Positions 5,505-32,130 of a stretch of DNA of 64,000 nt are shown here, in pieces. The stretch covers positions 62,001 through 126,000 of the forward strand of contig NZ_AUWQ01000012.1 of NCBI RefSeq assembly GCF_000455205.1, in the 5' to 3' direction. This stretch comes from Mycobacterium sp. UM_CSW (GTDB lineage Bacteria; Actinomycetota; Actinomycetes; Mycobacteriales; Mycobacteriaceae). The notes under the pieces were generated by a model that was given only the letters and a program-made list of their open reading frames with translations, searched no databases and was not told where the DNA came from. Every line of letters begins with the position of its first letter. Position 1 is the first letter of the stretch. A program made the translations under genes and the position numbers.

Positions 5505-5505
5505 G

Positions 5506-6336
5506 TCAACGTTCCTTCCCAAAGAAAAACTCCTGCGCGTTGTTGTAGAGGTAGTTGTCGAGCACCTCGGGGGGCAGGTCGAGCGCGCGGGCTTCCGGTA
5601 AAACCCGGCGCATGCGCAGCACCGGCCAGTCCGACGCGTAGATCACCTTGTTCGGGCCGCGGGTCCGCATGTAGTGCAGCAGCGATTCCGGCAGCCGCTT
5701 GGGAGACCACGCCGATGTCATCAGGCGCAGGTTGGCGTACTTGAGCAGCAACCGTATCGCGACGTCCCACCACGGGTCGGCGCCGTGGATCATGCACAGC
5801 TTCAGCTCGGGAAAACGCACGCACACCCGGTCCAGGTGCATGGGATGTTGGACCTCTCCCGGGATCGGTGGGCCCGGGATGCCGGTGTTGATGCACAGCG
5901 GGAGGTCCAGCTCCGCGCATTTCGCGTACAGCGGGTAGTAGACGGCGTCGCTGGGCGGATACTGCCCGTCGCCCCAAAAGCTCGGTCCTACAACCGCATA
6001 CGCCACCGGCAGATCGCTCACGACGGCGGTCAGCTCGCGCAGGGACCGGACCGGCCGCAGCAGGTTCGCCCCACCCATCGCCAGGGCGAACCGGTCTGGC
6101 TTGGCTTCGATGAACTTGCGCGCCGTGGTGGACGGGCTGGCCAGCGAATCCATCAGGATCGCCCGCTGCACTCCCTGTTCGTCCATCTCGTCGAGCAGCT
6201 CGGACAGGTCGACGGGCGCGAACATCGACTCCGGCCCCTTGAAGTAGTCGTCTCGGACCTTGAGCATCCAGGTGGGTTGGGAGTCCGCCTCACCAAAGTG
6301 CACGTTGACGAGGCAGTCAATCGCCTTGGTGTTCAT
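5506..6336 (-). CDS. Amidohydrolase family protein (ACMSD/LigI-like TIM barrel)
   Basis: 276 residues of the amidohydrolase-2 superfamily, whose members hydrolyse lactones, open rings or decarboxylate cyclic acids using a TIM-barrel metal site. Visible motifs are VNVHFGEAD near the N-terminus (in place of the DxHxH strand), MIHGADPWWD, and the C-terminal YASDWPVLRMRR with the conserved Asp of the metal site. The start ATG overlaps the synthetase stop (ATGA at 6333-6336), so translation is coupled. It is shorter than the second amidohydrolase in the operon and only distantly like it. A hydrolytic ring-opening or decarboxylation step is inferred. Confidence 0.85.
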   Translation of the reverse strand: MNTKAIDCLVNVHFGEADSQPTWMLKVRDDYFKGPESMFAPVDLSELLDEMDEQGVQRAILMDSLASPSTTARKFIEAKPDRFALAMGGANLLRPVRSLRELTAVVSDLPVAYAVVGPSFWGDGQYPPSDAVYYPLYAKCAELDLPLCINTGIPGPPIPGEVQHPMHLDRVCVRFPELKLCMIHGADPWWDVAIRLLLKYANLRLMTSAWSPKRLPESLLHYMRTRGPNKVIYASDWPVLRMRRVLPEARALDLPPEVLDNYLYNNAQEFFFGKER

Positions 6337-7952
6337 GACACCTTCTCTTCAGCTTGCTCTCGGGCCCACCGGTAGTTGGGCTTGCCATTGCCCAAACGCT
6401 GAATCTGCTCGACGAAGATGAACGCCTTGGGCGCCTTGAAATGTGCCAGTTGCGCCGTGCAGAAGGTATAGAGAGCACGCCCGTCGGCGCTCAGGTCGGC
6501 GCCCGGGTGTTGCGCGACGAGCGCGACGACTTCCTGGCCCCACCGCTCGCTGGGTCGTCCCACCACGAGGGCGTCGGCGATGCCCGGATGTGCGCGCAGC
6601 ACTTCCTCGACCTCTTCGACGAAGACCTTTTCGCCGCCGGTGTTGATCACCAGCGAGTCACGACCGAAAAGGCGTATGGTGCCGTCCTTTTCGATGGATG
6701 CGCGGTCGCCCGGTATCACCACCTGCCGGCCCTCGATCCGGGGGAAGGTGCGCCGGGTGGCCTCAGCGTCGTCGAAGTAGCCCAGCGGAATCCGCCCCGT
6801 CCTGGCGGCCCACCCGATCTCGTTGTCACCGGGACGCAGAAACCTGGTGCGATCGGCGGAGACGACGGTGGCGCCTTCCCGGGGTGCGAAGGTCTCGCTC
6901 GCGGTGCCGTTGTGGCTATGACCGAAGGCCATGTTGCCGCTCTCCGAGGATCCGTAGCCTTCGATGATGGTGATGTGCGGAATGCATTCCATCAGCGCGC
7001 GTTTGTATTTCGCGTTGGTGGCGGCCCCGCCGGTGCCGATGGCGTTCAGCGCGGACAAGTCGTAGCGGTGGGCGCGCAGTTCGGCGATCAGCGGCCCGGC
7101 GTACGCGTCGCCGACCATCGTCATCATGCCTACCTTTTCGCGCTCGGCGGTTTCCCACACGGACCGGACGTCGAGCTTATTGCGGTCGTCATAGAGCACG
7201 ACCGTCAGGCCCGCACACAGCGCGGCGAACGCGGTCCACATGCCGGCAGCGTGCATCAGCGGCGAGACGGCGAACCATGGCGGCCCGCCGCCGCGCACCT
7301 TGTCATGAATCTCGGTGACGCTCGCGTGGTCGGCCCCCACCATCGACGACACGTACATGTCGCTTTGGCGCCACAGGACGCCCTTGGGGCGTCCGGTCGT
7401 TCCGCCGGTACACATCATGATCAGGTCGTCGGGCGACCCAGCGGGGCGAAAGCCGGTGGCGCCGGCCGCCAGCGCGTCGTCCAGCGACACGGCACCCGGC
7501 AATTCCGGGGCGCCGCTGCCGTCGTCGATGGACACCAGCAGCTCCGTCCCCTCCGGGGGAAGCACGTCGGCGAACCGCGCGCCGAGGGCGCGGTGATAGA
7601 TGATCGCCCTGGGACGGACATAGGCCAGCAGGTCGGCGATTTCGCGCGGCGAGTAGTGGTGGTTCACGTTGACCGGGACGGTGCGCGCCTTGAGGCATCC
7701 GATCACCATGTCGGGGTACAGGTCGTTGTACATGATGAGCGCGACCCGGTCCTGGCCGCATTCCCACGGCTCGAGCGTCTCGCGCTCGGCGTAGGCCCCG
7801 AATCCCTTGCCGCTGAGGTAATTCGCCAGATCATCGGTGCGCCGGGCGGATTCGGCAAACGTGCTGCGGCGGTCTCCGCAGACGGTCATCAAACGGTCGG
7901 GGATGACGTCGGCGATGGCGTCAAGAACCGCGCCTACGGTCCATTCGCTCAC
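6333..7952 (-). CDS. Acyl-CoA synthetase (AMP-binding, FadD type)
   Basis: 539 residues of the ANL adenylating superfamily, which activates a carboxylic acid to its CoA thioester through an acyl-adenylate. Motifs in order: P-loop CTGGTTGRPKGVLW (about residue 180), EGYGSSESGN, GDRASIEKDGTIRLFGRD hinge, VINTGGEKVFVEEVE, and the C-terminal catalytic Lys in NGKPNYRW. The GTG start at 7952 gives the common mycobacterial N-terminus VSEWTVGAVLDAI and leaves 22 bp after the upstream gene; the frame stays open to an ATG at 8000, inside that gene. It is probably the entry step that loads the operon's substrate onto CoA. Confidence 0.9.
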   Translation of the reverse strand: MSEWTVGAVLDAIADVIPDRLMTVCGDRRSTFAESARRTDDLANYLSGKGFGAYAERETLEPWECGQDRVALIMYNDLYPDMVIGCLKARTVPVNVNHHYSPREIADLLAYVRPRAIIYHRALGARFADVLPPEGTELLVSIDDGSGAPELPGAVSLDDALAAGATGFRPAGSPDDLIMMCTGGTTGRPKGVLWRQSDMYVSSMVGADHASVTEIHDKVRGGGPPWFAVSPLMHAAGMWTAFAALCAGLTVVLYDDRNKLDVRSVWETAEREKVGMMTMVGDAYAGPLIAELRAHRYDLSALNAIGTGGAATNAKYKRALMECIPHITIIEGYGSSESGNMAFGHSHNGTASETFAPREGATVVSADRTRFLRPGDNEIGWAARTGRIPLGYFDDAEATRRTFPRIEGRQVVIPGDRASIEKDGTIRLFGRDSLVINTGGEKVFVEEVEEVLRAHPGIADALVVGRPSERWGQEVVALVAQHPGADLSADGRALYTFCTAQLAHFKAPKAFIFVEQIQRLGNGKPNYRWAREQAEEKVS

Positions 7953-7974
7953 TAGCGTAACCAGCCTCGAATAA

Positions 7975-9177
7975 TCAAGCGGGCGATCCGACCTGGACAC
8001 CGAGGAGATCTAGAGCGTTGTCCCGCATGATTTTCCGAATATCCGAGTCGCTGAATCCGACGAGCTCTTCGGCGAACGATAGCGGCGACTCGAGGCCTTC
8101 ACCGTGCGGCCAGTCGGAGCCGAACAGGATTTTGTCGACGCCGATGGCCTTGGCCAGCTCCGTCAGGTCGTCCTCGTAGTACGGCGCGATCCACACGTTG
8201 TTGCGCAGCTGCTCCACCGGATCCTCGGGAAAATGCCGCGGATAGTTGTTGGCCGCCTTCTTCAGGCGCTTGACCAGCCGGTGCACGAAGTAGGAGCCGT
8301 TCTCGATGCTGACCGCCCTGAGTTTGGGGTGTCGGGTGAACACGCCGTGCACGATCATCGACGCCATCGTGTCGTGGATGGCGCGGTCGTCCAGGAGCAC
8401 CGTGTCCAGTGGATCCTTTTCACCAAACCCCTCGAAGGTCGCCTTGCCTCCCCAAGCCGCCGCGATGTGCAGGTAACCGCTGTCGCTGAGGTGGAATCCG
8501 ACCGGAACCCCCGCCTCGGCCAGCCGGGCCCACACCGGGTCGTGGCTGCGATCGCCCAGCGACCTCGGCTTGACGACGCCGGGCACCGGCGCCGGCCGCA
8601 CCAGGACCAGCTTGGCGCCGCGCGCCAACACGAACTCCAGCTCGTCGACGGCGCCGGCCGGGTCGGCCAGCGAGATGATCGGCGCGGCGATGATGCGGTG
8701 GTCGGGCCGGTCGAAACCCCAATCCTCGTCGAGCCAGAGGTTGAACGCGTGCACCGACGCCATCGTCGCGTCGATGTCTCCCTTGAGCGCCTCTTCCACG
8801 CCGCAGCCGAACGTCGGCAGCATGAAAACCGTTTCGATGTCCTGGGTGTCCATCACGGCAACGCGCGCTTCGCGGTTCTGGTACTCGGGGTGTTCGGCGA
8901 GCCGCTCGACCTTCATCAGAGACGCCGGGTCGACGCCTTCCGGAATCTCACCACGGAACAACAGGTCGAGGCAGCCCGGCACGATGATCGGATCGAAGGT
9001 GGGATTGGGAACGAAATGGTTGACGCGGCCGCCGATTACGGCCAGAGTGCGCTTTCCCTGAGTGACCATCTGCACGCCGCGGGTCTTGAATGCCTTGTCC
9101 AAGTGACGGGTAAAGGCATCCAGCGGCTCGTAATAGTGATTGTCGACGTCGATCGCCTTGTAATCCAAGTGGGCCAT
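7975..9177 (-). CDS. Amidohydrolase family protein (metal-dependent, ACMSD-like)
   Basis: 400 residues of the amidohydrolase-2 family. The N-terminal metal motif appears as AIDVDNHYYEP, mid-protein strands carry GFHLSDSGY and SIENGSYF, and the C-terminus carries LFGSDWPHGEG with the conserved Asp and His. This pattern is common in actinobacterial degradation clusters. The start at 9177 is preferred over an ATG at 9183 because GAAAGGA lies at the right distance. The gene lies between the crotonase and the acyl-CoA synthetase in one operon. A decarboxylation or hydrolytic ring cleavage is the likely chemistry; the substrate is not known. Confidence 0.9.
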   Translation of the reverse strand: MAHLDYKAIDVDNHYYEPLDAFTRHLDKAFKTRGVQMVTQGKRTLAVIGGRVNHFVPNPTFDPIIVPGCLDLLFRGEIPEGVDPASLMKVERLAEHPEYQNREARVAVMDTQDIETVFMLPTFGCGVEEALKGDIDATMASVHAFNLWLDEDWGFDRPDHRIIAAPIISLADPAGAVDELEFVLARGAKLVLVRPAPVPGVVKPRSLGDRSHDPVWARLAEAGVPVGFHLSDSGYLHIAAAWGGKATFEGFGEKDPLDTVLLDDRAIHDTMASMIVHGVFTRHPKLRAVSIENGSYFVHRLVKRLKKAANNYPRHFPEDPVEQLRNNVWIAPYYEDDLTELAKAIGVDKILFGSDWPHGEGLESPLSFAEELVGFSDSDIRKIMRDNALDLLGVQVGSPA

Positions 9178-9208: not shown

Positions 9209-10063
9209 TCAAGCGTCGGTTGAGGTGAGCTTCCCCAACAAGGGCGGGAATCGCGGCGACCGCTTCTCGAGGAAGCTGGTGATGCCCTCGATAACGTCCG
9301 GACGCGGCATCGCCTCGTGCAGCAGGACCTCGGCGCGCGACGTGGCGTCGACGACGTCGCGAGTGGCGTCGCCGTATACCTGCCGTTTGATCACCGCCAT
9401 CGAAGCCGGCGAGCAATTCCGTGCGATGTCCTCCGCGTATTCCAGGGCGCGGCTCAGCAGATGTTCGGGCGCGACGACTTCTTTGACGAGCCCGAGCGCG
9501 GCCGCCTCCTCGGCGAGGAAGGTGCGCCCGCTCAACAACAGGTCGAGGGCGACGCCCCAGGTCGTCAGGCGCGGAAGTATCCAGGAGATGCCGAATTCGG
9601 CGATCAGGCCGCGGCGCGCGAACACCGCACCGAACTTAGCGCCCGCGGCCGCGAACCGGACGTCGCACATGAGTGCCTGCGTCAGGCCGATGCCGACGCA
9701 GGCTCCGTTGACGGCCGCGATGACGGGCTTGCGCAGTGTGGTCACGAAATGGGGTGGGCGCTCGCCGACCAGCTCGGCCAGGTCGGTCTGAGCCGCCTTC
9801 TCCATCTTCTCGCCGTAGCTGGGCGCCGAACTCGGCGCGCCCAGATACGCGCCGGCGCAGAATCCCTTGCCCCGGCCGGTCACCACGATCACCCGGACGT
9901 CCGGATCCTGTTCGGCTCGGTCGATCCCGGCATAGAAGCCGGCGGCGATGTCCGGGCCCCAGGCGTTCAGGCGATCCGGGCGGTTGAAGGTCAGGATCGC
10001 GACGCCGCTCGCCGTCGCCTCGTAGAGCACCGCGTCTTCGGAGGCACCGTCGCTGCCGGACAT
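9209..10063 (-). CDS. Enoyl-CoA hydratase/isomerase family protein (crotonase 1)
   Basis: 284 residues with the crotonase fold: VAILTFNRPDRLNAW at the N-terminus, the oxyanion-hole segment GRGKGFCAGAYLG, and AAVNGACVGIGLTQ. The residues that align with the two catalytic glutamates of enoyl-CoA hydratase are Thr (in GIGLTQALMCD) and Phe (in FARRGLIAEFG), so simple hydration is doubtful. Start ATG 10063 has AGGAGGTG about 8 nt upstream; the frame is open further to 10150 but that segment covers the promoter. First gene of the six-gene minus-strand operon and preceded by the shared 19-bp motif at 10119-10137. Confidence 0.9.
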   Translation of the reverse strand: MSGSDGASEDAVLYEATASGVAILTFNRPDRLNAWGPDIAAGFYAGIDRAEQDPDVRVIVVTGRGKGFCAGAYLGAPSSAPSYGEKMEKAAQTDLAELVGERPPHFVTTLRKPVIAAVNGACVGIGLTQALMCDVRFAAAGAKFGAVFARRGLIAEFGISWILPRLTTWGVALDLLLSGRTFLAEEAAALGLVKEVVAPEHLLSRALEYAEDIARNCSPASMAVIKRQVYGDATRDVVDATSRAEVLLHEAMPRPDVIEGITSFLEKRSPRFPPLLGKLTSTDA

Positions 10064-10118: not shown

Positions 10119-10137
10119 TACTGTATACCTATCGGTA
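10119..10137. promoter_or_regulatory. Putative TetR operator, site A
   Basis: TACTGTATACCTATCGGTA lies 55 bp upstream of the first gene of the six-gene catabolic operon. It matches sites at 13124-13142 (on the other strand) and 15898-15916: all three read TACTGTA at one end and a GTA trinucleotide at the other over exactly 19 bp. The ends (TAC and GTA) are dyad-symmetric, as for TetR-family operators. A -10-like TATACAGT overlaps it on the minus strand, so binding would block the promoter. Confidence 0.55.
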
Positions 10138-10268
10138 GCGCATTCCACAACTGCCTCCCCGGCCGGCGGCAGCCCGGTCCAGCAGCGATTTTGCCGATGC
10201 TGAACCGCTAACCGCGCGATGGTCGAAGGTGCTTGGCGGTCTTCGGTTTCCGGTCATCCGGCTGTCGC

Positions 10269-10541
10269 CTAACGGGGCGCCCGTCGCCCGGTGATGAGCT
10301 TGACGATCGCCAGCAAGAGCACCGCGCCGAGCAGACACGTGAGGAACGAGAAGAACAGGCCTCCCCCGGCGACGTCCACGCCGAAGCCGCGCAGCAGGAA
10401 CCCCCCGATCAAGCCGCCCACGACGCCGACCACGATATTGAGGATCAGCCCCATCTGGGCGTCGGTCCCCATGATTTTGCTGCCGACCCAACCGGCCAGT
10501 CCCCCGATGACTATCCAGCCGACCACACCGAGAGTGAGCAT
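10269..10541 (-). CDS. GlsB/YeaQ/YmgE family stress-associated membrane protein
   Basis: 90 residues with three hydrophobic segments at about 5-24, 31-50 and 58-82 and a basic C-terminus. The glycine-rich pattern WIVIGGLAGWVGSKIMG and GLILNIVVGVVGGLIGG is the signature of the transglycosylase-associated (GlsB) family of small inner-membrane proteins, often linked to general stress response. No enzymatic residues are known for the family. It is separated from the catabolic operon by about 200 bp and is probably expressed independently. Confidence 0.85.
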   Translation of the reverse strand: MLTLGVVGWIVIGGLAGWVGSKIMGTDAQMGLILNIVVGVVGGLIGGFLLRGFGVDVAGGGLFFSFLTCLLGAVLLLAIVKLITGRRAPR

Positions 10542-10629
10542 TCCGCAATCCCTTCGGTAGGCGAGTAGCCATCACCCTATGCCGCTTGCGGGCGTTTGAA
10601 ACGGCGATCTGGCGGGTTATCGACGATTG

Positions 10630-10842
10630 GTGAAGACACTGTTGAGAGCGCTCGTTCATCGCCTCCGCCAAGCCCGCGGAGTTTTGCTGCGGGCCCAGTT
10701 GGCGCTGACGGGCGCCCAGATCCTGTTCTGGGTGGCGCTGATCGGCGCTCCGGTCGGTCTCGCGCTGCGGGCCCGACAGCGCCGGATGCGACGTGAGTTG
10801 CCGCGGACGGGCGATGCGGTCGTACCGCCGCCCGTCAACTGA
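10630..10842 (+). CDS. Small putative membrane protein
   Basis: A 70-residue open frame from GTG (an adjacent TTG at 10627 is an alternative). It has a basic amphipathic N-terminus, one hydrophobic segment (ALTGAQILFWVALIGAPVGL, about residues 25-45) and a very basic tail. The ribosome-binding site is weak and I recognise no family. It fills the gap between the GlsB-like gene and the CsbD-like gene. It could be a chance frame in GC-rich DNA. Confidence 0.3.
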   Translation: MKTLLRALVHRLRQARGVLLRAQLALTGAQILFWVALIGAPVGLALRARQRRMRRELPRTGDAVVPPPVN

Positions 10843-10936
10843 TGTTGTGGCGTGTGCCACGTTGCGATCACGTTTGCGCTGACGGGGCAACCGGGAAGGC
10901 TCCAGGTAAGCCATCCATCAACGGGAGGGATATGCA

Positions 10937-11176
10937 ATGGTCGACAGCAAGAGCGGTCCCATCGAGCTGGTCCGGGGCGTCATCGAGGACGTTTTCGGTA
11001 AGGCGAAGGAATTCATCGGCACGATCCTCGGCCGGGATGACCTGATCAACGAGGGTGAGGCCCAGCAGGACAAGGCCGAAGCGCAGCGCAACGCGGGGAA
11101 GAAGGAAGCCGCGGCCGAGAAGGCTCGCGCGAAGGCCAAGGCCGCCGAAGCGCGCGAGCGCGCTGAACAGAACTAA
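10937..11176 (+). CDS. CsbD family stress protein
   Basis: 79 residues, highly charged, starting MVDSKSGPIELVRGVIEDVF with a GGGAGGGA ribosome-binding site. The N-terminal half fits the CsbD pattern (KGKAKEFIGTILGRDDLINEGEAQQDKAEAQ-like); the second half is an Ala/Lys/Glu helix. CsbD-like proteins are small, abundant and controlled by stress sigma factors in other bacteria; their molecular function is unknown. A strong hairpin terminator follows, so this is a single-gene transcript. Confidence 0.85.
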   Translation: MVDSKSGPIELVRGVIEDVFGKAKEFIGTILGRDDLINEGEAQQDKAEAQRNAGKKEAAAEKARAKAKAAEARERAEQN

Positions 11177-11193
11177 ATAGCGCGTCGAGGGAG

Positions 11194-11225
11194 CGGGCCC
11201 GGTTACCGACCGGGCCCGTTTCTCG
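11194..11225 (+). terminator. Rho-independent-type terminator after the CsbD gene
   Basis: CGGGCCCGGT (11194-11203), a 5-nt loop, and ACCGGGCCCG (11209-11218) form a perfect 10-bp stem, followed by TTTCTCGT. It starts 17 nt after the CsbD stop codon. Short T-tracts are usual for mycobacterial terminators. Confidence 0.8.
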
Positions 11226-11257
11226 TCGTAACCGGTTGCGGCGTAATGGTGAGGCGG

Positions 11258-12265
11258 CTATGCCGCGATGAGCCCCAGCCGCCGGTAGGCGTTTTCGATC
11301 TGGGCCTTCGCCTCGCTCGGCAACTGCGCCTGTGGGGGACGGGAGTGGGGATAGTCGCCTATCGGTAGACCCAGCAGTGCGGCGGCGTACTTGAACGCAC
11401 CACCCCAGTGGGTGAAGTAATCCGACCGGCCCGGGTAGCAGGTCCACCACGAGCCCACGTCGAGGTCGAACTGGTCCATCCCGGACTCTCGCCCGTAGTC
11501 CATCGCCTCGAGGAGCTTGTCGCTGCACACCAGATCCCAATACTCGGAAAACAGTCGCCGCTGCGGGGTCTCGAACAGGTAACCGGCCGTGCCCAATTGC
11601 GCCGGACAGACGATGCCGGCCCGCAGCCACCCCGCGCGGTACACGGTCCGGTCGCATTCCCAGACCGTCAGGCCGGGCGCCAACTCGTGCAGCCGCCGGC
11701 TCGCCTCCGGCCGGAACGCGCCCTCCTTGGTGGCGCATACGGCGGGCACCTCGTCGTAGATGCGCGCGCTTTCGGCCGGAGTCAGCACGTAGCCGGAGGA
11801 CGGGGAGTTGAACATGCCCAACGCGATATCGGTGCGTGCGGCAACATACTTGAAGAACCTCAGTACGCCCTCGCCGCCGTGGGCCTCCATCATCGGCGTT
11901 TGGATGTAGGCGATGTCGGCACCCACCTCTTGAGCGTGCCGTGTCAGCTCCAGACAGTCCTTCGCCGACATCGCCGCGGTGCAGGCCTGGATGACGACGT
12001 GGGGGTTGAGGCCGCGCGCCTCCTCGATCGCCACCTCCAGCAATCGCTTGCGCTCATCGAGGGTCAGTGACCAAAACTCCGCGATCCCGCTGGTGCACCA
12101 CAACATCGGGTGCCCCAGGTCGCCGACGCAGTAGCGGACCAACGTCCGGTAGGCGTCCCAGTCGATGTCGTCACCGTCGGTGCCACAGAACGGCGTGTAG
12201 AGGGAGTCGCCGATTCCTCGCAACGCCCCTCGCGCCCAAACACGCGCCTCGCCAGCCGTCGCCAT
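11258..12265 (-). CDS. Dihydrodipicolinate synthase (DapA) family lyase/aldolase
   Basis: 335 residues of the class I aldolase DapA superfamily. The Schiff-base lysine is visible in VCATKEGAF and the carboxylate-binding loop in WCTSGIAEFWSLT. The catalytic tyrosine of DHDPS is absent: the usual TPYYNKP reads TPMMEAH. A lysine-biosynthetic role is therefore unlikely; catabolic members such as hydratase-aldolases of aromatic breakdown are a better analogy. Start ATG 12265 has AGAAGGAG upstream, 34 bp after the SDR stop; the frame is open to 12319 but would overlap the SDR. Downstream gene of a two-gene unit with that SDR. Confidence 0.85.
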   Translation of the reverse strand: MATAGEARVWARGALRGIGDSLYTPFCGTDGDDIDWDAYRTLVRYCVGDLGHPMLWCTSGIAEFWSLTLDERKRLLEVAIEEARGLNPHVVIQACTAAMSAKDCLELTRHAQEVGADIAYIQTPMMEAHGGEGVLRFFKYVAARTDIALGMFNSPSSGYVLTPAESARIYDEVPAVCATKEGAFRPEASRRLHELAPGLTVWECDRTVYRAGWLRAGIVCPAQLGTAGYLFETPQRRLFSEYWDLVCSDKLLEAMDYGRESGMDQFDLDVGSWWTCYPGRSDYFTHWGGAFKYAAALLGLPIGDYPHSRPPQAQLPSEAKAQIENAYRRLGLIAA

Positions 12266-12299
12266 CGTCCACTCCTTCTGTCGGCCAAACGATTTGGAG

Positions 12300-13097
12300 T
12301 CAGGTGAAGTCCGATCCACCGTCGACGTTGATGTTCGCTCCGGTCATGTACGAGTTGCGCCGCGACGCCAGGAACGCGGCGACGGGGCCGATCTCCTCCG
12401 GTAGGCCCGCCCGGGGCATTTGCGCCGGATGCCCGAAATGCTCGGCGATGGCGTCCATCAGCGCATAGGGGTCGGTGCCGTCGACGCCGACGGACTTCGC
12501 CCAGCCGACCAGCGACTCGGAGGCGATGCTGCCCGGCGACACCACATTGACCAGGATCTCGTCCTTGGCCAACAGCAGCGAGAGGTTCTTCGAGACGCTT
12601 GTCAACATCGACTTGGCCGCCGTGTAGGCCGGCAGCATGACGCTTTGCCGCTGGGTCGAGTGCGCCGAGAAGTTGACGATCCGCGCCCATTGGGCCTTGC
12701 GCAGCAGCGGAAGTGCCGAACGAACACAGCGCACCATGCCCATGACGCCCTCTTCGACGGCCTGGTGCCACTGCTCGTCGCTAAGAGCCTCGAAACTGCC
12801 TGGCGCGCCGGGCCCCACGGTGTTGATCAGCACGTTGAGCTCGCCGTCCCACCGCTCGGCGAGTTCGGCGAAGACCTTGTCGACGGCGCCGGCGTCAGTG
12901 ATGTCGGCGTCGAGCCCGAGCGCATCCGGGCTGCCGCGACCGGTCAAGTCCGTCACCGCGGAATCGAGAGCCGCACGGCTGCGGCCGACCAGCGCCACCC
13001 GGGCACCGTCGTCGGCCAGGCAACGAGCCGTGGCCAGACCCATGCCGCGACTGCCTCCGACCACCACCGCGGTGGCATTCGCCAGCCCTAGATCCAT
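12300..13097 (-). CDS. Short-chain dehydrogenase/reductase (SDR)
   Basis: 265 residues of a classical SDR, an NAD(P)-dependent alcohol/ketone oxidoreductase. The nucleotide motif is VVGGSRGMGLA near residue 13 and the active site is YTAAK (about residue 160) with an upstream Ser in NFSAHST. The usual NNAG is replaced by INTVG. The ATG at 13097 follows the 19-bp motif at 13124-13142 by 26 bp. It is cotranscribed with the DapA-like lyase and is divergent from the TetR regulator, so it is a prime target of that regulator. Confidence 0.9.
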   Translation of the reverse strand: MDLGLANATAVVVGGSRGMGLATARCLADDGARVALVGRSRAALDSAVTDLTGRGSPDALGLDADITDAGAVDKVFAELAERWDGELNVLINTVGPGAPGSFEALSDEQWHQAVEEGVMGMVRCVRSALPLLRKAQWARIVNFSAHSTQRQSVMLPAYTAAKSMLTSVSKNLSLLLAKDEILVNVVSPGSIASESLVGWAKSVGVDGTDPYALMDAIAEHFGHPAQMPRAGLPEEIGPVAAFLASRRNSYMTGANINVDGGSDFT

Positions 13098-13123
13098 GTG
13101 TCCAGCCGTTTTACCAAAAAGCC

Positions 13124-13142
13124 TACGATAGGTATTACAGTA
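13124..13142. promoter_or_regulatory. Putative TetR operator, site B
   Basis: TACGATAGGTATTACAGTA, whose complement TACTGTAATACCTATCGTA aligns with sites A and C. The flanking bases extend the dyad to CTAC...GTAG. It lies between the divergent SDR gene (start 13097) and the TetR gene (start 13252), the classical position for a TetR autoregulatory operator. Confidence 0.6.
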
Positions 13143-13251
13143 GCAGACGGAAAACTCGACGACACGCCCGCGTATACGCAGGTCAGAGAGGAACCGCCGG
13201 TAGATTCCACCTTACCGGTGGCACGGCTAGATCGTGATGGAGGTGCCCGTA

Positions 13252-14043
13252 GTGGCAAAGCAGGCAACCGCTGATAAGCGTCAACGGCGCGAGCGCGGGT
13301 CCATCAATCCCGACGACATCATCAGCGGCGCATTCGAACTCGCGGAGCAAGTGTCGATAGACAACCTGAGCATGCCACTGCTCGGCAAACATCTCGGCGT
13401 GGGCGTCACCAGCATCTACTGGTACTTCCGCAAGAAGGACGACCTGCTCAACGCGATGACCGACCGCGCGCTCAGCAAGTACGTGTTCGCCACCCCCTAC
13501 GTCGAGGCCAGCGACTGGCGCGAGACGCTGCGCAACCATGCCCGCCTGATGCGTAAGACGTTCATGGGCAATCCAATTCTGTGCGACCTGATTCTGATTC
13601 GCGCCGCCCTCAGTCCGAAGGCCGCGCGGTTGGGCGCCCAGGAGATGGAGCGCGCGATAGCCAACCTGGTCGAGGCCGGCCTGTCACCCGAGGATGCCTT
13701 CGACACCTACTCCGCCGTTTCGGTTCACGTCCGCGGTTCGGTGGTGCTGCATCGGCTGTACGAGAAGAACCAGACCCCGGACAGCGGGCCGCGCGCCATC
13801 GAGGACGCCGTGGCCATCGATCCCGCCACCACGCCGCTTATCGCACAGGTGACCGGGCAGGGACACCGCATCGGGGCGCCCGACGAAACGAATTTCGAAT
13901 TCGGCCTGGACTGCATCCTCGACCACGCGGCCAGCCTGATCGAAAAGGGCGGTAAAGGCGGCAAGTCCGCGCCGTCGGGGCAACGCAAGGCGACCAAGTC
14001 GCCCGCCCAGCGCGGGCGGAGCAAGGCGACCGCGACGCGGTAA
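13252..14043 (+). CDS. TetR/AcrR family transcriptional regulator
   Basis: 263 residues. The N-terminal helix-turn-helix spans about residues 20-65 (IISGAFELAEQVSIDNLSM, then LGVGVTSIYWYFRKKDDLL). The remainder is a helical ligand domain with a Lys/Arg/Ser-rich tail of about 35 residues that may add nonspecific DNA contact. The GTG at 13252 is preceded by GGAGG at 13239-13243; the upstream GTG at 13234 lacks one. Such proteins usually repress nearby operons until a pathway ligand, often an acyl-CoA, binds. The three 19-bp motifs suggest it controls the surrounding island. Confidence 0.9.
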   Translation: MAKQATADKRQRRERGSINPDDIISGAFELAEQVSIDNLSMPLLGKHLGVGVTSIYWYFRKKDDLLNAMTDRALSKYVFATPYVEASDWRETLRNHARLMRKTFMGNPILCDLILIRAALSPKAARLGAQEMERAIANLVEAGLSPEDAFDTYSAVSVHVRGSVVLHRLYEKNQTPDSGPRAIEDAVAIDPATTPLIAQVTGQGHRIGAPDETNFEFGLDCILDHAASLIEKGGKGGKSAPSGQRKATKSPAQRGRSKATATR

Positions 14044-14099
14044 CTGCCCGCCAAGTCACACCGGCCACACGCGTCGCCAGCGGAGGGGGAATGCCTTGT

Positions 14100-14166
14100 G
14101 CCCGCCTCATAGCGACAAGTCGATCAGCTGCAAACGATGCGCCCGCGTTGTCGCTCGGAGGCGGGC
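14100..14166. repeat. Palindromic repeat element, copy 1
   Basis: A 19-nt arm at 14100-14118 (GCCCGCCTCATAGCGACAA) is complementary, with two mismatches, to 14148-14166. The 21 bases at 14096-14116 are identical to 42215-42235 in copy 2. It lies in the 181-bp gap between the convergent TetR and crotonase genes. It could act as a bidirectional transcription stop or be a mobile palindromic repeat. Confidence 0.7.
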
Positions 14167-14224
14167 AAACTGTCGATCCCTCTTGTGCTGAATCTCTGGT
14201 GGCAGAAGCGAATTGACGCGGCGG

Positions 14225-15130
14225 CTACCCTTGTGTTTCCGGTGGCTCCGGCACGTGGAAATGCTCGTCACGTAGCCGGAAGGCTTCCTTCGCGCCGTGC
14301 TCTGCTCGCGTTTTGACGAAGTTGAACTCGCCCGGCGCGAATTGCAAGTTGGTGCCGTAGGCGTGAAACAGGTAGCTCGCGACTTCTTCGCCCTGGTACG
14401 CCTGGCTCTGCTCGACGAGGCGGAACGCCTCCTTGGCGATGACGACTCCGTCGGCGGGCATCTTCGCCGCCTTCTCTGCCCAGTAGCGAGCCCGCGCCGT
14501 CACCGCGCCGGGATCGCAAGTGTCGGTGAAGATTCCGAGGTGCTCGATCTCGGCGGCCTCGATGATGTCACCGGTCAGCAGCAGCCGTCTGGCCAGCACC
14601 GGCCCCAGCCGGTGGAAGAACATGTGCAGGCTGCCCAGGGCCGGGCCGAGGAAGCGGGTGGCCGGCATGCCGATCTTCGTGTCGCGCGCAATGACGGAGA
14701 TGTCGGTCATCAGCGCCATCTCGAAGCCGCCGCCGAGCGCGTAGCCGGCAATCTCCCCCACCGTCACCTTCGGGAAGCCCATGAAGTTGTGGTAGAAGCC
14801 AAAGGACTTGCGGTCCACGGTGAGTCGCCGACGCTGACTGGGACGACGCTTGGCCGCCGCGTCGTCGGACGCCTTGGCCTTGTCGCCGTACCAGCCGTAG
14901 GCGTTGTTCATGTCGGCCCCGGCGGAAAAGACTCCCTCGGCTCCGCGCAACAGCACCACGGTGAGGTCATCGTCCTCCGCCACTCGGTCCAGGCAGCGGG
15001 CGATGGCCTCACGCATCGTCGCGTCGTAGGAGTTGCGTTGCTTGGGGTTGTTCAGCGTGATCGTCGCGATGCGCCGCTCGGGGTCGACGTCGAAGAGCAC
15101 ACGATCGTCCGAAACGCTGGAGCCGCTCAT
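14225..15130 (-). CDS. Enoyl-CoA hydratase/isomerase family protein (crotonase 2)
   Basis: 301 residues with ATITLNNPKQRNSY, the oxyanion segment GVFSAGADMN, a 40-residue basic insertion, and GYALGGGFEMALMTD, which keeps the first catalytic-type Glu of the family. The second Glu position reads Ala (GMPATRFLG). It is the only one of the island's five crotonases retaining either glutamate. The ATG at 15130 overlaps the thioesterase stop (ATGA) and has AAAGGAG upstream; the frame is open further upstream only through that gene. Reaction unknown: hydration, isomerisation or C-C cleavage are all possible in this fold. Confidence 0.9.
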   Translation of the reverse strand: MSGSSVSDDRVLFDVDPERRIATITLNNPKQRNSYDATMREAIARCLDRVAEDDDLTVVLLRGAEGVFSAGADMNNAYGWYGDKAKASDDAAAKRRPSQRRRLTVDRKSFGFYHNFMGFPKVTVGEIAGYALGGGFEMALMTDISVIARDTKIGMPATRFLGPALGSLHMFFHRLGPVLARRLLLTGDIIEAAEIEHLGIFTDTCDPGAVTARARYWAEKAAKMPADGVVIAKEAFRLVEQSQAYQGEEVASYLFHAYGTNLQFAPGEFNFVKTRAEHGAKEAFRLRDEHFHVPEPPETQG

Positions 15131-15810
15131 CTGCCGGACTCCTTTCGCCGCCTGCCGAATTTGAATCCGGTCAGGTCCTCCGGCCGCGACGCCAACGTCT
15201 TGACCTCGCCCATACACAGCACTTCGTCGTCGAGCAGCAGCCGCGCCGTCGACTCGATGCCCCGTTCGACCTGTGAGCGAACGATGTCGAAGCGCAGGTC
15301 GGTCAGCACGGGCGTCGGCCGGCGGAAGGTGACGAGCAGCGACCGGGTCTTGCCGGAAAGGCCGGTGACGCAATTGTGGTGCTGGATCACGCTGTCGAAG
15401 AACACGCCGAGGAAGCCGCCGTGCACCAGCCCCGGCGGCCCTTCGTAGACGAGCGGGAAGGACACCATCCCGGCGGCTTTCTCGGCATCGAGCTCGTCGA
15501 ACCGGTATTCGGGAAAGCATGGGTTGTAGGCACCGATGTCGGTGGCATGGTTGAGGTATACGCGCCGGGGGTCATCGGCAATCTCGCCGATTCGCGGTGC
15601 GCTGTCCGTCGGGGCCGCGGCGGCCAACTCGCCTTCCCACTCGGCGAACTTCGCGAGCATCGCGTCGACGGTGGGGTGCGGGTGCTCCAGCGATAACAGC
15701 AGCGAGCTGAGGCGCCGCATGGCGCTGGCCGCCGCGACCGTTTGCGCCAGCGGCGCCTCGCCGAATTTGGCGTCGCCGGCGTATGGCGAAGCGGTTGTGC
15801 CGTCGGCCAT
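15127..15810 (-). CDS. PaaI/hotdog-fold thioesterase family protein
   Basis: About 227 residues. The C-terminal half carries the hotdog signature, with VYEGPPGLVHGGFLGVFFDSV and the helix residue pattern HGG...D typical of acyl-CoA thioesterases, followed by VTFRRPTPVLTDL. It likely hydrolyses an acyl-CoA to free acid, perhaps to release dead-end intermediates. ATG 15810 is chosen; a GTG at 15825 is equally open. Its stop overlaps the downstream crotonase start, and it diverges from the plus-strand operon across site C. Confidence 0.8.
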   Translation of the reverse strand: MADGTTASPYAGDAKFGEAPLAQTVAAASAMRRLSSLLLSLEHPHPTVDAMLAKFAEWEGELAAAAPTDSAPRIGEIADDPRRVYLNHATDIGAYNPCFPEYRFDELDAEKAAGMVSFPLVYEGPPGLVHGGFLGVFFDSVIQHHNCVTGLSGKTRSLLVTFRRPTPVLTDLRFDIVRSQVERGIESTARLLLDDEVLCMGEVKTLASRPEDLTGFKFGRRRKESGR

Positions 15811-15897
15811 GCTGCCCTTATCCACGGGGTTTCGCCCCGCTCTGTTCCGTCGTTAGGGTTTCCTTGCTAACTTATACCTCGTATCAATCGTATTGCC

Positions 15898-15916
15898 TAC
15901 TGTATGGGTAACCGTA
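15898..15916. promoter_or_regulatory. Putative TetR operator, site C
   Basis: TACTGTATGGGTAACCGTA, with the inner dyad TACNGT-N7-ACNGTA, lies 25 bp upstream of the first gene of the plus-strand operon and between it and the divergent thioesterase. A weaker related string (TACGATTGATACGAGGTAT on the minus strand, about 15876-15894) lies beside it and may serve the minus-strand promoter. Confidence 0.6.
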
Positions 15917-15941: not shown

Positions 15942-16763
15942 GTGAGTCATGGGGCCGACGCGGCCGAGGCCGAGGGATCGGTCAACGCGTGCCGGGATGG
16001 CGCGGTCCTGCGGGTCACCTTGAATCGCCCGGCGCAGCGTAACGCCTTGACCCACTTGATGATCGGTCAGTTCGTCGACGCGCTGACCGATGCGGCCGCC
16101 GACGATTCGTTGCGCGCGATCCACATCCGCGGCGCGGGAGAAGACTTCTGCGCCGGCGCCGACTGGGTGGCCGCCAATGAGCCCGGCGGCCAACGTCCCC
16201 GCGCGGGTGATCTGGTGCGGCGGATCCCGCACGCCGCCCACCGGGTCATCGAACTCGTCGCGAGCGTTCAGCTGCCGGTGGTCTGCAGCGTGCGGGGATG
16301 GGCGGTGGGGTTCGGCTGCAACCTCGCACTGGCCGCCGACTTCACCGTCGCCGCCACCGACGCGGTGTTGTGGGAACCGTTCGTGGACCGCGGTTTCAGC
16401 CCGGATTCGGGCTCCACCTGGCTGCTGCCCCGCCTGGTCGGGCTGGCACGGGCCAGGCAGATGCTGCTGCTGGGCGAGAAGGTCAACGCGACCGACGCGG
16501 CCGCCTGGGGGCTGATCCACCAGGCGGTGAGCGGACCCGAACTCGACGACACCGCCGGGAAACTGGTGGAGCGGCTGGCCTCGGGACCGACGGCCGCGAT
16601 CGGGCTGGCCAAGCAGGCCCTGAACTTCGGTCAGCACGCGACGTTGAGTCAATCGCTGACGCAGGAGCTGTTCAATCTGGAACTCTCCTGTCGGACAGGC
16701 GATTTCAAAGAGGGGCTGGAGGCGTTTCGGCAACGGCGGGCGCCAAAGTTCCAGGGCAGATGA
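15942..16763 (+). CDS. Enoyl-CoA hydratase/isomerase family protein (crotonase 3)
   Basis: 273 residues starting at GTG with GGAGAAAGG upstream. Motifs: LRVTLNRPAQRNALT, the oxyanion-hole segment AGEDFCAGADW, and RGWAVGFGCNLALAADF. The catalytic Glu positions align with Asn (GFGCN) and Phe (EPFVDRGFSPDSGSTW). It is the first gene of a six-gene plus-strand operon, 10 bp before the next crotonase. Likely acts on a CoA thioester made by one of the operon's ligases; the exact reaction cannot be read from the sequence. Confidence 0.9.
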   Translation: MSHGADAAEAEGSVNACRDGAVLRVTLNRPAQRNALTHLMIGQFVDALTDAAADDSLRAIHIRGAGEDFCAGADWVAANEPGGQRPRAGDLVRRIPHAAHRVIELVASVQLPVVCSVRGWAVGFGCNLALAADFTVAATDAVLWEPFVDRGFSPDSGSTWLLPRLVGLARARQMLLLGEKVNATDAAAWGLIHQAVSGPELDDTAGKLVERLASGPTAAIGLAKQALNFGQHATLSQSLTQELFNLELSCRTGDFKEGLEAFRQRRAPKFQGR

Positions 16764-16773
16764 GGGAGCGCGG

Positions 16774-17586
16774 ATGCCTACTGACTCGTTCGACACCATC
16801 AACTACCACGTCGACGGGCACACGGCCACCATCACACTGAACCGTCCGGAGGCGCTCAACGCGCTGAGCCCGCACATGATCACCGAACTCCGCGCCGCCT
16901 ACGACGAAGCCGAGAACGACGACAAGGTGTGGCTGCTCGTCGTAACCGGCACCGGCCGCGCGTTCTGCACGGGGGCCGACGTGAAGGCCATTCCCGAAGA
17001 CGGCAAGGTGATCTACGAGCGCCCGTACCTGTCGACATACGACCAGTGGGAGGCACCGCAGGAGGGCACTCCGCCGTTTCGCACCATGGCCAAGCCGGTG
17101 CTGACCGCGGTCAACGGGCTGTGCTGCGGTGCCGGCATGGACTGGGTCACTACGACGGACATCGTCATCGCGTCCGAGCAGGCGACCTTTTTCGATCCGC
17201 ACGTGAGCATCGGGCTGGTGGCCGGGCGCGAATTGGTGCGGGTGTCCAGAGTGTTGCCCCGCTCGATCGCGCTGCGGATGGCCCTGATGGGCAAGCACGA
17301 GCGGATGAGCGCGCAACGCGCCTACGAACTCGGATTGATCAGCGAAATCGTCGAGCACGACCGCCTGTTGGACCGGGCCTACGAGATCGCCGACATCGTC
17401 AACTCCAACGCGCCCCTGGCGGTGCGGGGGACCCGGCTGGCCATCCTCAAGGGCCTGAACGTGCCGCTGCACGAGGCCGAGATACTCGCCGAGACCTTCC
17501 GCGAGCGCGTGCTGCGAACCGAGGATGCGCAGGAAGGCCCCAAGGCCTTCGTCGAAAAGCGGAAGCCGAATTGGCAATGCAGATGA
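16774..17586 (+). CDS. Enoyl-CoA hydratase/isomerase family protein (crotonase 4)
   Basis: 270 residues, ATG preceded by GAGGGAG. Motifs: ATITLNRPEALNALS, GTGRAFCTGADVK, NGLCCGAGMDWVTTTD and TFFDPHVSIGLVAG. Asp replaces the first catalytic Glu and His sits at the second, a pattern also seen in crotonase 5, so the two are a related pair with perhaps different substrates. Its stop overlaps the next start (ATGA at 17583-17586). Confidence 0.9.
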   Translation: MPTDSFDTINYHVDGHTATITLNRPEALNALSPHMITELRAAYDEAENDDKVWLLVVTGTGRAFCTGADVKAIPEDGKVIYERPYLSTYDQWEAPQEGTPPFRTMAKPVLTAVNGLCCGAGMDWVTTTDIVIASEQATFFDPHVSIGLVAGRELVRVSRVLPRSIALRMALMGKHERMSAQRAYELGLISEIVEHDRLLDRAYEIADIVNSNAPLAVRGTRLAILKGLNVPLHEAEILAETFRERVLRTEDAQEGPKAFVEKRKPNWQCR

Positions 17587-18377
17587 GCTTTGAAACCATC
17601 CTGCTCGAGGTCGACGCCGACGACCACGTCGCCACCATTACGCTGAATCGGCCCGAGCAGCTAAACGCGTTCAACCGCACCATGTGTGAGGAGATGGCCC
17701 GGGCCTGGCGCGCGGTCAAGCTTGACGAGTCCGTGCACGCGGTGGTGCTGCGGGCGGCCGGCGACCGGGCGTTCAGCGCCGGTCTGGACGTCAAGACGCC
17801 GTACGGTCAACCCGAAAACGTGTGGAACCACGAGGATCCGGGCGAGGCGCTCAGTCCCAAGTGGCAGAAGATGTGGAAACCCGTGGTGTGCGCCGTCCAG
17901 GGCATGTGCACCGCGGGCGCGTTCTATTTCCTCAACGAATCCGACGTTGTCATCTGCTCGGACGACGCAACGTTTTTCGACTCGCACGTATCGGCGGGCC
18001 TGGTGTGCGCGCTGGAGCCGATCGGGCTGATGCGGCGCATCGGCCTGGGCGAGACCTTGCGGATGGCGCTGATGGGCAACGACGAGCGCGTCGGAGCCGA
18101 CACCGCCCTGCGCATCGGGTTGGTTTCGGAGGTCGTCGCCCGCGACCGACTGTGGGGGCGCGCCCACGAGATCGCCGCGACCATCGCCGCCAAGCCGCCG
18201 TCGGCGACCCAGGGCACGGTGAAGGCGATCTGGGAATCGCTGGACCGGCCCTACCGCGCCGCCCTGGAGCAGGGGCTCATCTATACGCGTCTGGGCAACC
18301 CGCTCGGCACCGCGGAATTGCGCGAATTGCGCGCCCAGCAAGGCGAGGTCGCTGCGCGCGAACCGAAGATCCGGTGA
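17583..18377 (+). CDS. Enoyl-CoA hydratase/isomerase family protein (crotonase 5)
   Basis: 264 residues from the ATG that overlaps the upstream stop. Motifs: VATITLNRPEQLNAFN, GDRAFSAGLDVKTPYG, QGMCTAGAFYFLNESD and TFFDSHVSAGLVC. Neither catalytic Glu of a standard hydratase is present (Tyr and His at those positions). The tail KIR is followed by a TGATG overlap with the ligase gene. Translational coupling implies equimolar need with crotonase 4, possibly as a hetero-oligomer. Confidence 0.9.
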   Translation: MSFETILLEVDADDHVATITLNRPEQLNAFNRTMCEEMARAWRAVKLDESVHAVVLRAAGDRAFSAGLDVKTPYGQPENVWNHEDPGEALSPKWQKMWKPVVCAVQGMCTAGAFYFLNESDVVICSDDATFFDSHVSAGLVCALEPIGLMRRIGLGETLRMALMGNDERVGADTALRIGLVSEVVARDRLWGRAHEIAATIAAKPPSATQGTVKAIWESLDRPYRAALEQGLIYTRLGNPLGTAELRELRAQQGEVAAREPKIR

Positions 18378-19837
18378 TGCACCCGCTCAGCCGACGCATC
18401 GCCGACGTGCTCGACCTGCAGCGCGACGCGCACGCGATCGAGTATGGGGGCCAATGGATCTCGTGGCGCCAAGTGGGCGACACCGCGCGGCGCGTCGAAT
18501 CCGTGGCCGCCGGGGCCTCCGGCGTCGGCATGCTGCTGCGCAACCGGCCCGGCCACGTCGCGGCCTTCCTCGGGGTGCTGCTCGGCGGCGGAACGGTGGT
18601 CACCATCAACCCCGGCCGCGGTGACGACCGCACCCGGGTCGACATCGCCGCCCTGCGGCTGCCGTTGATCATCGGCGAACCCGACGACCTGGCCACGCTG
18701 GTCCCGGCCGGCACCGCGACGGTGGCGATCATCGGTACCTCCGTCGACGCCCGGGGGCAGGCCTGCGACAGATCCGCCGCCCAGCGCGGCGTGGCGGTGC
18801 GGATGCTGACGAGCGGGACGACGGGGCCGCCCAAACGAATCGATCTCAGCTACGACATGCTGGCGCGCAGCGTGATGGGCCCCGACCCGGAAACCGCCCC
18901 GGCGCCAACGCAGCTGCGCCGCGGCGTCGCGATCGTCAACTCGCCGCTGGTGCACATCGGCGGGGTGTTCCGGGTTCTGCAGTGCGTCGCCGAGGCCAGG
19001 CCCTTTGTGCTGCTGGAGCGCTTCGAGCTGCAGGCATGGGCCGAGGCGGTGCGCACCCACCGGCCCCGCACGGTGTCGCTGGTGCCGGCCGCGCTGCGGA
19101 CGGTGCTGCACTCCGACCTGACCCGCGCCGACCTGGAGAGCATCCGCGCCGTCACCTGCGGCACCGCACCGCTGTCGGCCGACGACGCCGACGCCTTCAC
19201 CGAGAAGTACGGCATCCCGGTCCTCACCTCCTACGCGGCAACGGAATTCGGCGGCGGTGTCGCCGGCTGGACCCTCGCCGATTACCAAAAGCACTGGCAA
19301 GCCAAGCGCGGCAGCGTCGGACGGGCCAACCCGGGCGCACACCTGCGGGTGGTCGACGACGAAGGCGCGCCGCTCGGGCCCGACCGGGTCGGCCTGCTGG
19401 AGGTCAAGCCCGGGCAACTGGGCCCATCGGCGAAATGGATGCGAACCACCGACCTGGCCCGCATCGACGCGGACGGCTTCGTCTGGATCGTCGGGCGGGC
19501 CGACCAGGCGATCATCCGCGGCGGGTTCAAGGTGATGCCCGACGACGTACGCGTCGCGTTGGAAGACCATCCCGCGGTGGCGGGCGCCGCCGTGGTCGCG
19601 CGGTCCGACGAACGGCTCGGGGAGACGCCCGTCGCGATGGTGCAACTGCGCCAGCCCGCGTCCGCCGACTCCGACACGCTGGTGCAGTATCTGCGAACGC
19701 GGCTGGCGCGCTACGAAATCCCCACCGAGATCGCGATCGTCGATGCGATCCCGCGAACGCCCTCCGGTAAGGCCGACCTCAGCCAGGTCAGGCTGTACTT
19801 CAGCAAGTCCGCGGCCCATCGCGACCATGCCCGGTGA
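18377..19837 (+). CDS. AMP-binding acyl-CoA ligase 1 (class I adenylate-forming)
   Basis: 486 residues of the ANL superfamily. The P-loop reads LTSGTTGPPKRID (about residue 145), followed by SYAATEFGGGVAGW, DLARIDADGFVWIVGRAD, IIRGGFKVMPDDV and the C-terminal Lys motif RTPSGKADLSQ, so both half-reactions look intact. The N-terminal domain is short. It starts inside the TGATG overlap with crotonase 5 and overlaps the next ligase by 11 bp. It probably activates an intermediate or side chain acid of the pathway. Confidence 0.9.
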   Translation: MHPLSRRIADVLDLQRDAHAIEYGGQWISWRQVGDTARRVESVAAGASGVGMLLRNRPGHVAAFLGVLLGGGTVVTINPGRGDDRTRVDIAALRLPLIIGEPDDLATLVPAGTATVAIIGTSVDARGQACDRSAAQRGVAVRMLTSGTTGPPKRIDLSYDMLARSVMGPDPETAPAPTQLRRGVAIVNSPLVHIGGVFRVLQCVAEARPFVLLERFELQAWAEAVRTHRPRTVSLVPAALRTVLHSDLTRADLESIRAVTCGTAPLSADDADAFTEKYGIPVLTSYAATEFGGGVAGWTLADYQKHWQAKRGSVGRANPGAHLRVVDDEGAPLGPDRVGLLEVKPGQLGPSAKWMRTTDLARIDADGFVWIVGRADQAIIRGGFKVMPDDVRVALEDHPAVAGAAVVARSDERLGETPVAMVQLRQPASADSDTLVQYLRTRLARYEIPTEIAIVDAIPRTPSGKADLSQVRLYFSKSAAHRDHAR

Positions 19838-28441: not shown

Positions 28442-28460
28442 AATATCATATTTCATATAG
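28442..28460. promoter_or_regulatory. AT-rich divergent promoter/operator
   Basis: AATATCATATTTCATATAG contains two TCATAT direct repeats (28446-28451 and 28453-28458) and is markedly AT-rich for this genome. It lies in the 134-bp gap between the divergent fabG-like and dehydrogenase operons and provides -10-like hexamers on both strands (TATAGGAT and TATGATAT). It is the best candidate binding site for the GntR regulator of the cluster. Confidence 0.5.
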
Positions 28461-28524
28461 GATCGCGCTCGGCGCCGGGTGCGCCGCGGCCCAGCGACCA
28501 ACTTCGAAAGAGGAGCGCCCGCCT

Positions 28525-32098: not shown

Positions 32099-32130
32099 AT
32101 CAACTGTAAGGCATACGGCAAGAGCCGCGG

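Follow-up and report, generated by a model that had tools for sequence, protein, structure and literature searches.

We analysed a 64,000-nucleotide stretch (the window) of the 6.39-Mb draft genome of Mycobacterium sp. UM_CSW, on contig NZ_AUWQ01000012.1 (C12), with window position 1 at C12:62001 and the whole window at C12:62001-126000. Three copies of a 19-bp motif, TACTGTA-N9-GTA, are very probably operators of the TetR-type regulator encoded at 13234-14043, which would use them to block its own promoter and those of catabolic operons until an inducer appears. The sequence establishes that the sites exist, that they are palindromic, conserved and placed at operon heads, and that they cluster with the TetR gene. 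We propose that the TetR would occupy both the 19-bp site in its own promoter and those heading the catabolic operons, that the bound protein would block these operons, making for repression rather than activation, and that an inducer, most likely a coenzyme A (CoA) thioester or acid of the pathway, would release it. The elements concerned are the following.

10119-10137, + strand: operator 1, TACTGTATACCTATCGGTA, an exact match to the motif, upstream of the leftward enoyl-CoA hydratase (ECH) operon
13112-13118, + strand: half-site-like word TACCAAA, 12 bp from operator 2, giving a weaker palindrome that overlaps it, with conserved columns
13124-13142, - strand: operator 2, TACTGTAATACCTATCGTA (TACGATAGGTATTACAGTA on the + strand), an exact match, in the divergent gap between the short-chain dehydrogenase/reductase (SDR) and TetR genes
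13234-14043, + strand (the start may be the GTG at 13252): TetR-type regulator with PF00440 and PF02909
15886-15892, + strand: half-site-like word AATCGTA, 12 bp from operator 3, conserved
15898-15916, + strand: operator 3, TACTGTATGGGTAACCGTA, an exact match, in the divergent gap before the ECH gene at 15942

Form of the putative operators and their occurrence in the genome

A direct read of the window returned the three sequences at the coordinates given in a first-pass annotation, and the recomputed distances to the starts at 10063 (-), 13097 (-) and 15942 (+) agreed with its 55, 26 and 25 bp; overall, sites stand 25-110 bp ahead of gene starts. The shared TACTGTA and terminal GTA that it described are exact in all three, but the palindrome TACNGTA-N5-TACNGTA describes the motif better. 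Its best form is the 19-bp TACTGTAANNNTTACAGTA, in which the TACNGTA arm is palindromic by itself. The annotation had also placed one site in the TetR divergent gap, which is true of operator 2, but operator 3 likewise lies between divergent genes and may also serve the leftward pair of open reading frames (ORFs) at 15127-15810 and 14225-15130. An extra half-site-like word stands 12 bp off at C12:75112/75124, C12:77886/77898, C12:49735/49747 and C28:27859/27871. Spacing 12 is the best among 33 offsets on nine sites; only four of these nine own-genome sites match at four or more of six positions, and by such counts the idea of a third half-site is weak.

With up to two mismatches, TACTGTA-N9-GTA has 16 matches in the window against 3.7 expected, a number reached by none of 100 shuffles, and the exact matches there are operators 1-3 alone. 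In the whole genome the exact pattern occurs at six places (seven strand hits), namely C12:49747, 54770, 72119, 75124 and 77898, the last three being operators 1-3, and C28:27871. Five of the six fall within 28 kb (C12:49747-77916), for which the base composition of the window predicts 0.006 exact matches, or 1.4 per 6.39 Mb. The binomial chance of five of six inside one named 28-kb stretch, 1e-11, is optimistic because the stretch was chosen afterwards. Frequent occurrence elsewhere, which the first-pass annotation had named as fatal to its proposal, is thus not seen: exact matches are rare in the genome and clustered at the island.

More permissive descriptions extend the cluster. The palindrome TACNRTA-N5-TACNGTA with at most one mismatch occurs at nine genome places, six of them in C12:29465-77916, and a matrix scan of C12:1-126000 gave eight sites with a TAC/GTA core (C12:29465, 34993, 43395, 49747, 54770, 72119, 75124 and 77898) at 16.6-32.5 bits, where 20 simulated sequences peak at 13.5. 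Six own-genome sites were left out of the training of the matrix, and operator 3 was kept in because relatives also supply the same sequence. An AT-rich word at C12:15356 (19.3 bits) lacks the TAC/GTA core and was excluded. Weaker words at window 28444-28462 (C12:90444, 14.4 bits) and 32102-32120 (C12:94102, 15.8 bits) lie off the studied operon heads.

Conservation in orthologous promoters

The sites recur in orthologous promoters, a comparison that the first-pass annotation had proposed as a check: operator 1 in 65 of 72 readable loci, operator 2 in 78 of 80 named loci and operator 3 in every one of the 69 loci that have the orthologous ECH. The named loci, the 80 best among 303, overlap with the genus genomes read separately, among which 26 of 27 others have an operator 2 counterpart. 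For operator 1 a site had to reach 11.7 bits within 150 bp upstream of the orthologous ECH, locus L065 being skipped.

At operator 2 the 19 columns of the site are 99.6% identical and the flanks 44-72%, while the distance from site to TetR start varies from 58 to 231 bp among loci; around operators 2 and 3 a block of about 35-50 bp is conserved. At a palindromic half-site score of at least 12, the 80 named loci hold 80 occurrences, and the 250-bp bin that contains the SDR/TetR gap accounts for 78; with 20 permuted patterns the same threshold was never reached.

Most absences of operator 1 have a ready context. In six of the seven loci concerned (L100, L105-L108, L120) the end of the gene for a dihydrodipicolinate synthase (DHDPS)-like protein lies directly upstream of the ECH gene, so operator 2 could serve them; in L111 operator 1 is absent and no DHDPS-like gene offers this explanation. 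L064 has no operator 2 counterpart, its record beginning at the gene. In M. lepraemurium (L065) the SDR/TetR gap operator has been lost and the operator 3 counterpart retained.

Linkage of the sites to the TetR-type regulator

The regulator exceeds the family cut-offs for both the PF00440 helix-turn-helix domain (46.2 bits, cut-off 24) and the PF02909 ligand-binding domain (44 bits, cut-off 21), and a candidate palindromic operator lies in its own promoter region, as judged from sequence. It falls below the cut-offs of the NCBIfam equivalogs for tetracycline TetR (75 against 265 bits) and MftR2 (39 against 285 bits). Its predicted structure has a mean predicted local distance difference test score (pLDDT) of 53.2, with low confidence outside the DNA-binding part. 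The closest matches among named records, from Mycobacterium sp. E796 and 1245805.9, are 99% identical.

We compared 158 genomes of the genus, of which 120, about three quarters, have a close orthologue of the TetR (E <= 1e-85). The palindrome without mismatch occurs in 116 of these 120 and in 6 of the 38 others, which have a distant homologue or none and 13 of which were assigned by elimination. Two of the six (G112, G116) carry only TACCATACCCCCTACGGTA; the remaining four are G099, G130, G139 and G171. Among the 98 distinct palindrome places listed, from 43 genomes, the TetR gap accounts for 37; another 45 lie no more than 60 kb from the gene, 2 are farther off, 11 are on different contigs, and the last 3 come from genomes that lack a close orthologue. 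The word TACCATACCCCCTACGGTA is identical in G006, G112, G115, G116 and G144, away from the TetR gene, and may be part of a repeated element.

The recognition-helix segment VGVTSIYWYFR is identical at 11 of 11 positions in the orthologues, five paralogues and distant TetRs compared; two other TetRs of the same genome match it at 6 and 3 positions. In the three distant TetRs the ligand-binding parts are 27-34% identical. The paralogues form a second TetR, 52-59% identical and with the same recognition helix (loci L178, L180-L183), which in four genomes (G034, G021, G020, G011) is 17-21 kb away from the first TetR, with the P450 palindrome at a distance of about 1.3 kb, and in G030 is on another contig beside the thiolase gene.

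Plasmid pYLL1 of Rhodococcus sp. YL-1 provides a distant comparison. It encodes a TetR 45% identical to ours, near which are annotated an ECH, an SDR, a thiolase (69% identical to the mycobacterial thiolase), a PaaI-family thioesterase, a carboxyltransferase and an acyl-CoA-dehydrogenase pair 57-58% identical to the pair at C12:26983-29366. When the mycobacteria-trained matrix was run on 40.6 kb of it, the top five words (13.0-24.0 bits; the next has 10.9) fell in five intergenic gaps, before the TetR, ECH, thiolase, hydroxyacyl-CoA dehydrogenase and acyl-CoA dehydrogenase genes, and two of these sites have a clear extra half-site-like word. A related three-part sequence precedes the thiolase gene in two genomes of one other family (G047, G060; 12.5-14.3 bits). 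Location, co-occurrence and the Rhodococcus plasmid together support a tie between the putative operators and the neighbouring TetR.

A larger predicted regulon

The first-pass annotation proposed a regulon of up to 14 genes. We likewise count 14 in the window, but the set of three sites is incomplete. With operons and co-transcribed genes predicted from adjacency, the regulon grows to about 35, since roughly 20 more genes lie upstream of the window and a thiolase gene is unlinked. Joining these genes into one predicted pathway with a defined operator makes the pathway testable. C12 carries five further sites of the island ahead of the window.

C12:29465: with the acyl-CoA-dehydrogenase pair on one side and an acidic ORF without a clear family on the other
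C12:34993: between a Rieske ferredoxin/amidohydrolase operon (if later start codons are used) and a P450 plus alcohol dehydrogenase
C12:43395: between a luciferase-like monooxygenase/P450 pair and a carboxyltransferase
C12:49747: before a KshA-like Rieske oxygenase, with a CoA ligase further on
C12:54770: perfect-armed palindrome heading a P450 and a family III CoA transferase

Seven relatives (G062, G017, G029, G020, G004, G028, G006), picked because a pattern search had already shown sites there, have sites above 13 bits at the orthologous operon heads, even where the genes have moved, and several further sites near none of the compared genes. In G062 each of the eight sites has a counterpart and their order is unchanged, that of the Rieske oxygenase being matched only via a weaker overlapping word.

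The site at C28:27871 precedes the unlinked thiolase gene, and a scan of island proteins revealed no thiolase. In eleven genomes (G028, G014, G033, G018, G022, G027, G005, G016, G004, G024, G034) a close thiolase orthologue lies within about 1 kb of the TetR gene, and in G028, G020 and G004 it stands behind the operon 3 ECH. Among 25 orthologues with readable upstream regions (locus L145 was not counted), 7 have a site of more than 21 bits directly upstream, 5 one of 11.7-14.6 bits and 13 lower values. The seven are not beside the TetR gene, although the contigs leave G013 undecided, and the site-less thiolases in the three islands read (G028, G020, G004) trail the operon 3 ECH. The simplest reading is that the thiolase gene moved and has its own operator in this group.

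Three candidates of 18-21 bits, C38:95261, C70:21181 and C17:12083, were left out of the regulon because the genes that they head (scanned for the first two) have no clear relation to it. C38:95261 (L171:3261) is a 21-bit palindrome that stands about 97 bp ahead of paired genes for an acyltransferase and a CoA ligase, and may be an outlying member; C70:21181 heads an aminotransferase gene.

Alternative explanations

Several observations weigh against the sites being operators of this TetR. With one mismatch, the reversed-pattern control has 85/97 matches in the genome against 16/14 for TACTGTA-N9-GTA; for the palindrome the control gives 9/8 against 7/9, with a further pattern search similar, and it is non-zero in 42 of the 158 genus genomes against 122 for the pattern. 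The island sites C12:34993 and C12:49747 are weaker, the gap palindrome is missing from loci L018 (G026) and L065, and 13 of the 25 thiolase orthologues lack a clear site immediately before the gene. Between 9900 and 16100 no promoter of the sigma-70 type was recognised. Co-occurrence shows linkage and not binding, because the sites are inherited with the island. Finally, a TetR homologue of 44-46% identity with the same recognition helix (G112, G116, G074) has no site above 9.5 bits in 20 kb.

The control counts bear on the possibility that three AT-rich words in a GC-rich genome are alike by chance, as a short motif picked by eye might be when its looser forms are no commoner than their reversed control. 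The control was not taken as the chance level because the ATG/CAT words of which it is built are common; the raw numbers of loose matches carry no weight, which falls on exact matches, clustering and conservation. The clustering of exact matches speaks against chance likeness and the conservation refutes it, leaving it a negligible probability.

The motif might also be a core-promoter element, the recognition sequence of an alternative sigma factor. Given the conserved 35-50-bp block around operators 2 and 3 and the short distances of 25-110 bp to the starts, promoter elements probably do overlap the sites. The sites are inverted repeats, however, they occur in either orientation relative to the genes and between divergent genes, and palindromes without a mismatch are concentrated near the TetR gene and chiefly found in genomes that have it; we regard a sigma-factor element as very improbable.

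Somewhat less remote, though still improbable, is that the sites belong to another regulator of the island, in which the TetR is merely resident. The TetR-site link is drawn from sequence, several relatives carry the second TetR 17-21 kb away, and the branch in G112, G116 and G074 combines the same helix with a lack of sites. But the UM_CSW genome has the sites and lacks the second TetR (E <= 1e-40), whose identical recognition helix means that it would probably share the operator; the Rhodococcus plasmid, moreover, shares the TetR and some of the enzymes, and has one site before its TetR gene. In G112, G116 and G074 no other island genes occur in the 20 kb around the homologue, and this branch has either other targets or a helix that alone is insufficient to fix the operator. 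A different inverted repeat, TAAGTGTACG ... CGTACACTTA, lies 8-10 kb from the homologue in three genomes (L187:1174-1215, L188:519-571, L189:1966-1996).

Related regulators

TetR repressors with palindromes before lipid or CoA operons are a known kind, to which the predicted regulon adds a wide and well-conserved member. KstR (Rv3574), which controls the cholesterol regulon, is likewise an autoregulatory mycobacterial TetR repressor with many palindromes before lipid-degradation operons, but its motif is the 14-bp TnnAACnnGTTnnA and not the 19-bp TACTGTAANNNTTACAGTA (PMC1995591). KstR2 resembles the present case in having a palindrome, AnCAAGnnCTTGnT, that mycobacteria share with Rhodococcus and that marks three promoter regions in a regulon for catabolism (PMC3068626), and BkaR (Rv2506) in being a TetR repressor of CoA-pathway genes with operators in its own divergent promoter region and the motif GTTA-N-T-N4-A-N-TAAC (PMC3920632). 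In C12:25001-90000 the KstR motif has one match, within an ORF at window 192-2966, and the KstR2 and BkaR motifs have none; none of the three was found at the island promoters.

DarR, also of the TetR family, binds as two dimers to palindromes that overlap, one being imperfect; its DNA sequence differs from the present one and its ligand is c-di-AMP (PMC10636190). It is a precedent, and no proof, for two dimers at overlapping palindromes here. Motif searches for 30 mycobacterial TetRs have been published (PMC4482099), with logos given as figures. Among the titles and abstract beginnings listed in searches of an open-access library, no described counterpart was found; motif logos are mostly figures, invisible to text search.

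Predicted pathway and its genes

The remaining genes of the predicted regulon in the window are these.

3228-4418, - strand: acyl-CoA dehydrogenase; best PDB matches 6wy9/6wy8, then 4x28 chain A
4446-5522, - strand: acyl-CoA dehydrogenase; best PDB match 4x28 chain D
5506-6336, - strand: amidohydrolase family 2 protein
6333-8000, - strand: acyl-CoA synthetase; passes NCBIfam NF005863, PRK07798
7975-9183, - strand: amidohydrolase family 2 protein
9209-10063, - strand: ECH, heads operon 1; passes NCBIfam NF004857
11258-12265, - strand: DHDPS-superfamily aldolase/lyase-like protein
12300-13097, - strand: SDR, heads operon 2
14225-15130, - strand: ECH/isomerase-family protein, second ORF of the leftward pair
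15127-15810, - strand: ORF, first of the leftward pair, conserved beside operator 3
15942-16763, + strand: ECH, heads the rightward operon 3
16774-17586, + strand: ECH
17822-19837, + strand: AMP-binding CoA ligase (the true start is probably later)

The ORF at 15127-15810 has no Pfam match even at E 10 and no NCBIfam match; a PaaI label, guessed by eye and lacking family support, was dropped.

The two acyl-CoA dehydrogenases of operon 1 match different chains of 4x28, which we take to be the ChsE4-ChsE5 steroid side-chain enzyme, and of 6wy8/6wy9, and the nearest solved relatives of the Rieske protein are 3-ketosteroid 9-alpha-hydroxylases. Together with the CoA ligase, these matches suggest a ring-containing lipid as substrate. 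No particular substrate could be read from solved structures, to which the P450s, Rieske and DHDPS-like proteins are related only at the family level. The gene content suggests that a bulky ring compound is oxygenated by P450 or Rieske enzymes, activated with CoA and degraded by beta-oxidation, and the island probably encodes a CoA-dependent catabolic pathway for a ring-containing lipid. More tentatively, and with the odds somewhat against it, this could be a third large KstR-like mycobacterial regulon, for a polycyclic (steroid- or terpenoid-like) substrate, with operators of three half-sites binding two dimers and with unlinked genes recruited by operator gain.

Two small ORFs, at about 10269-10541 (-) and about 10938-11174 (+), separate operon 1 from the DHDPS-like gene, which in some other loci, L105-L108 included, is directly followed by the ECH gene instead.

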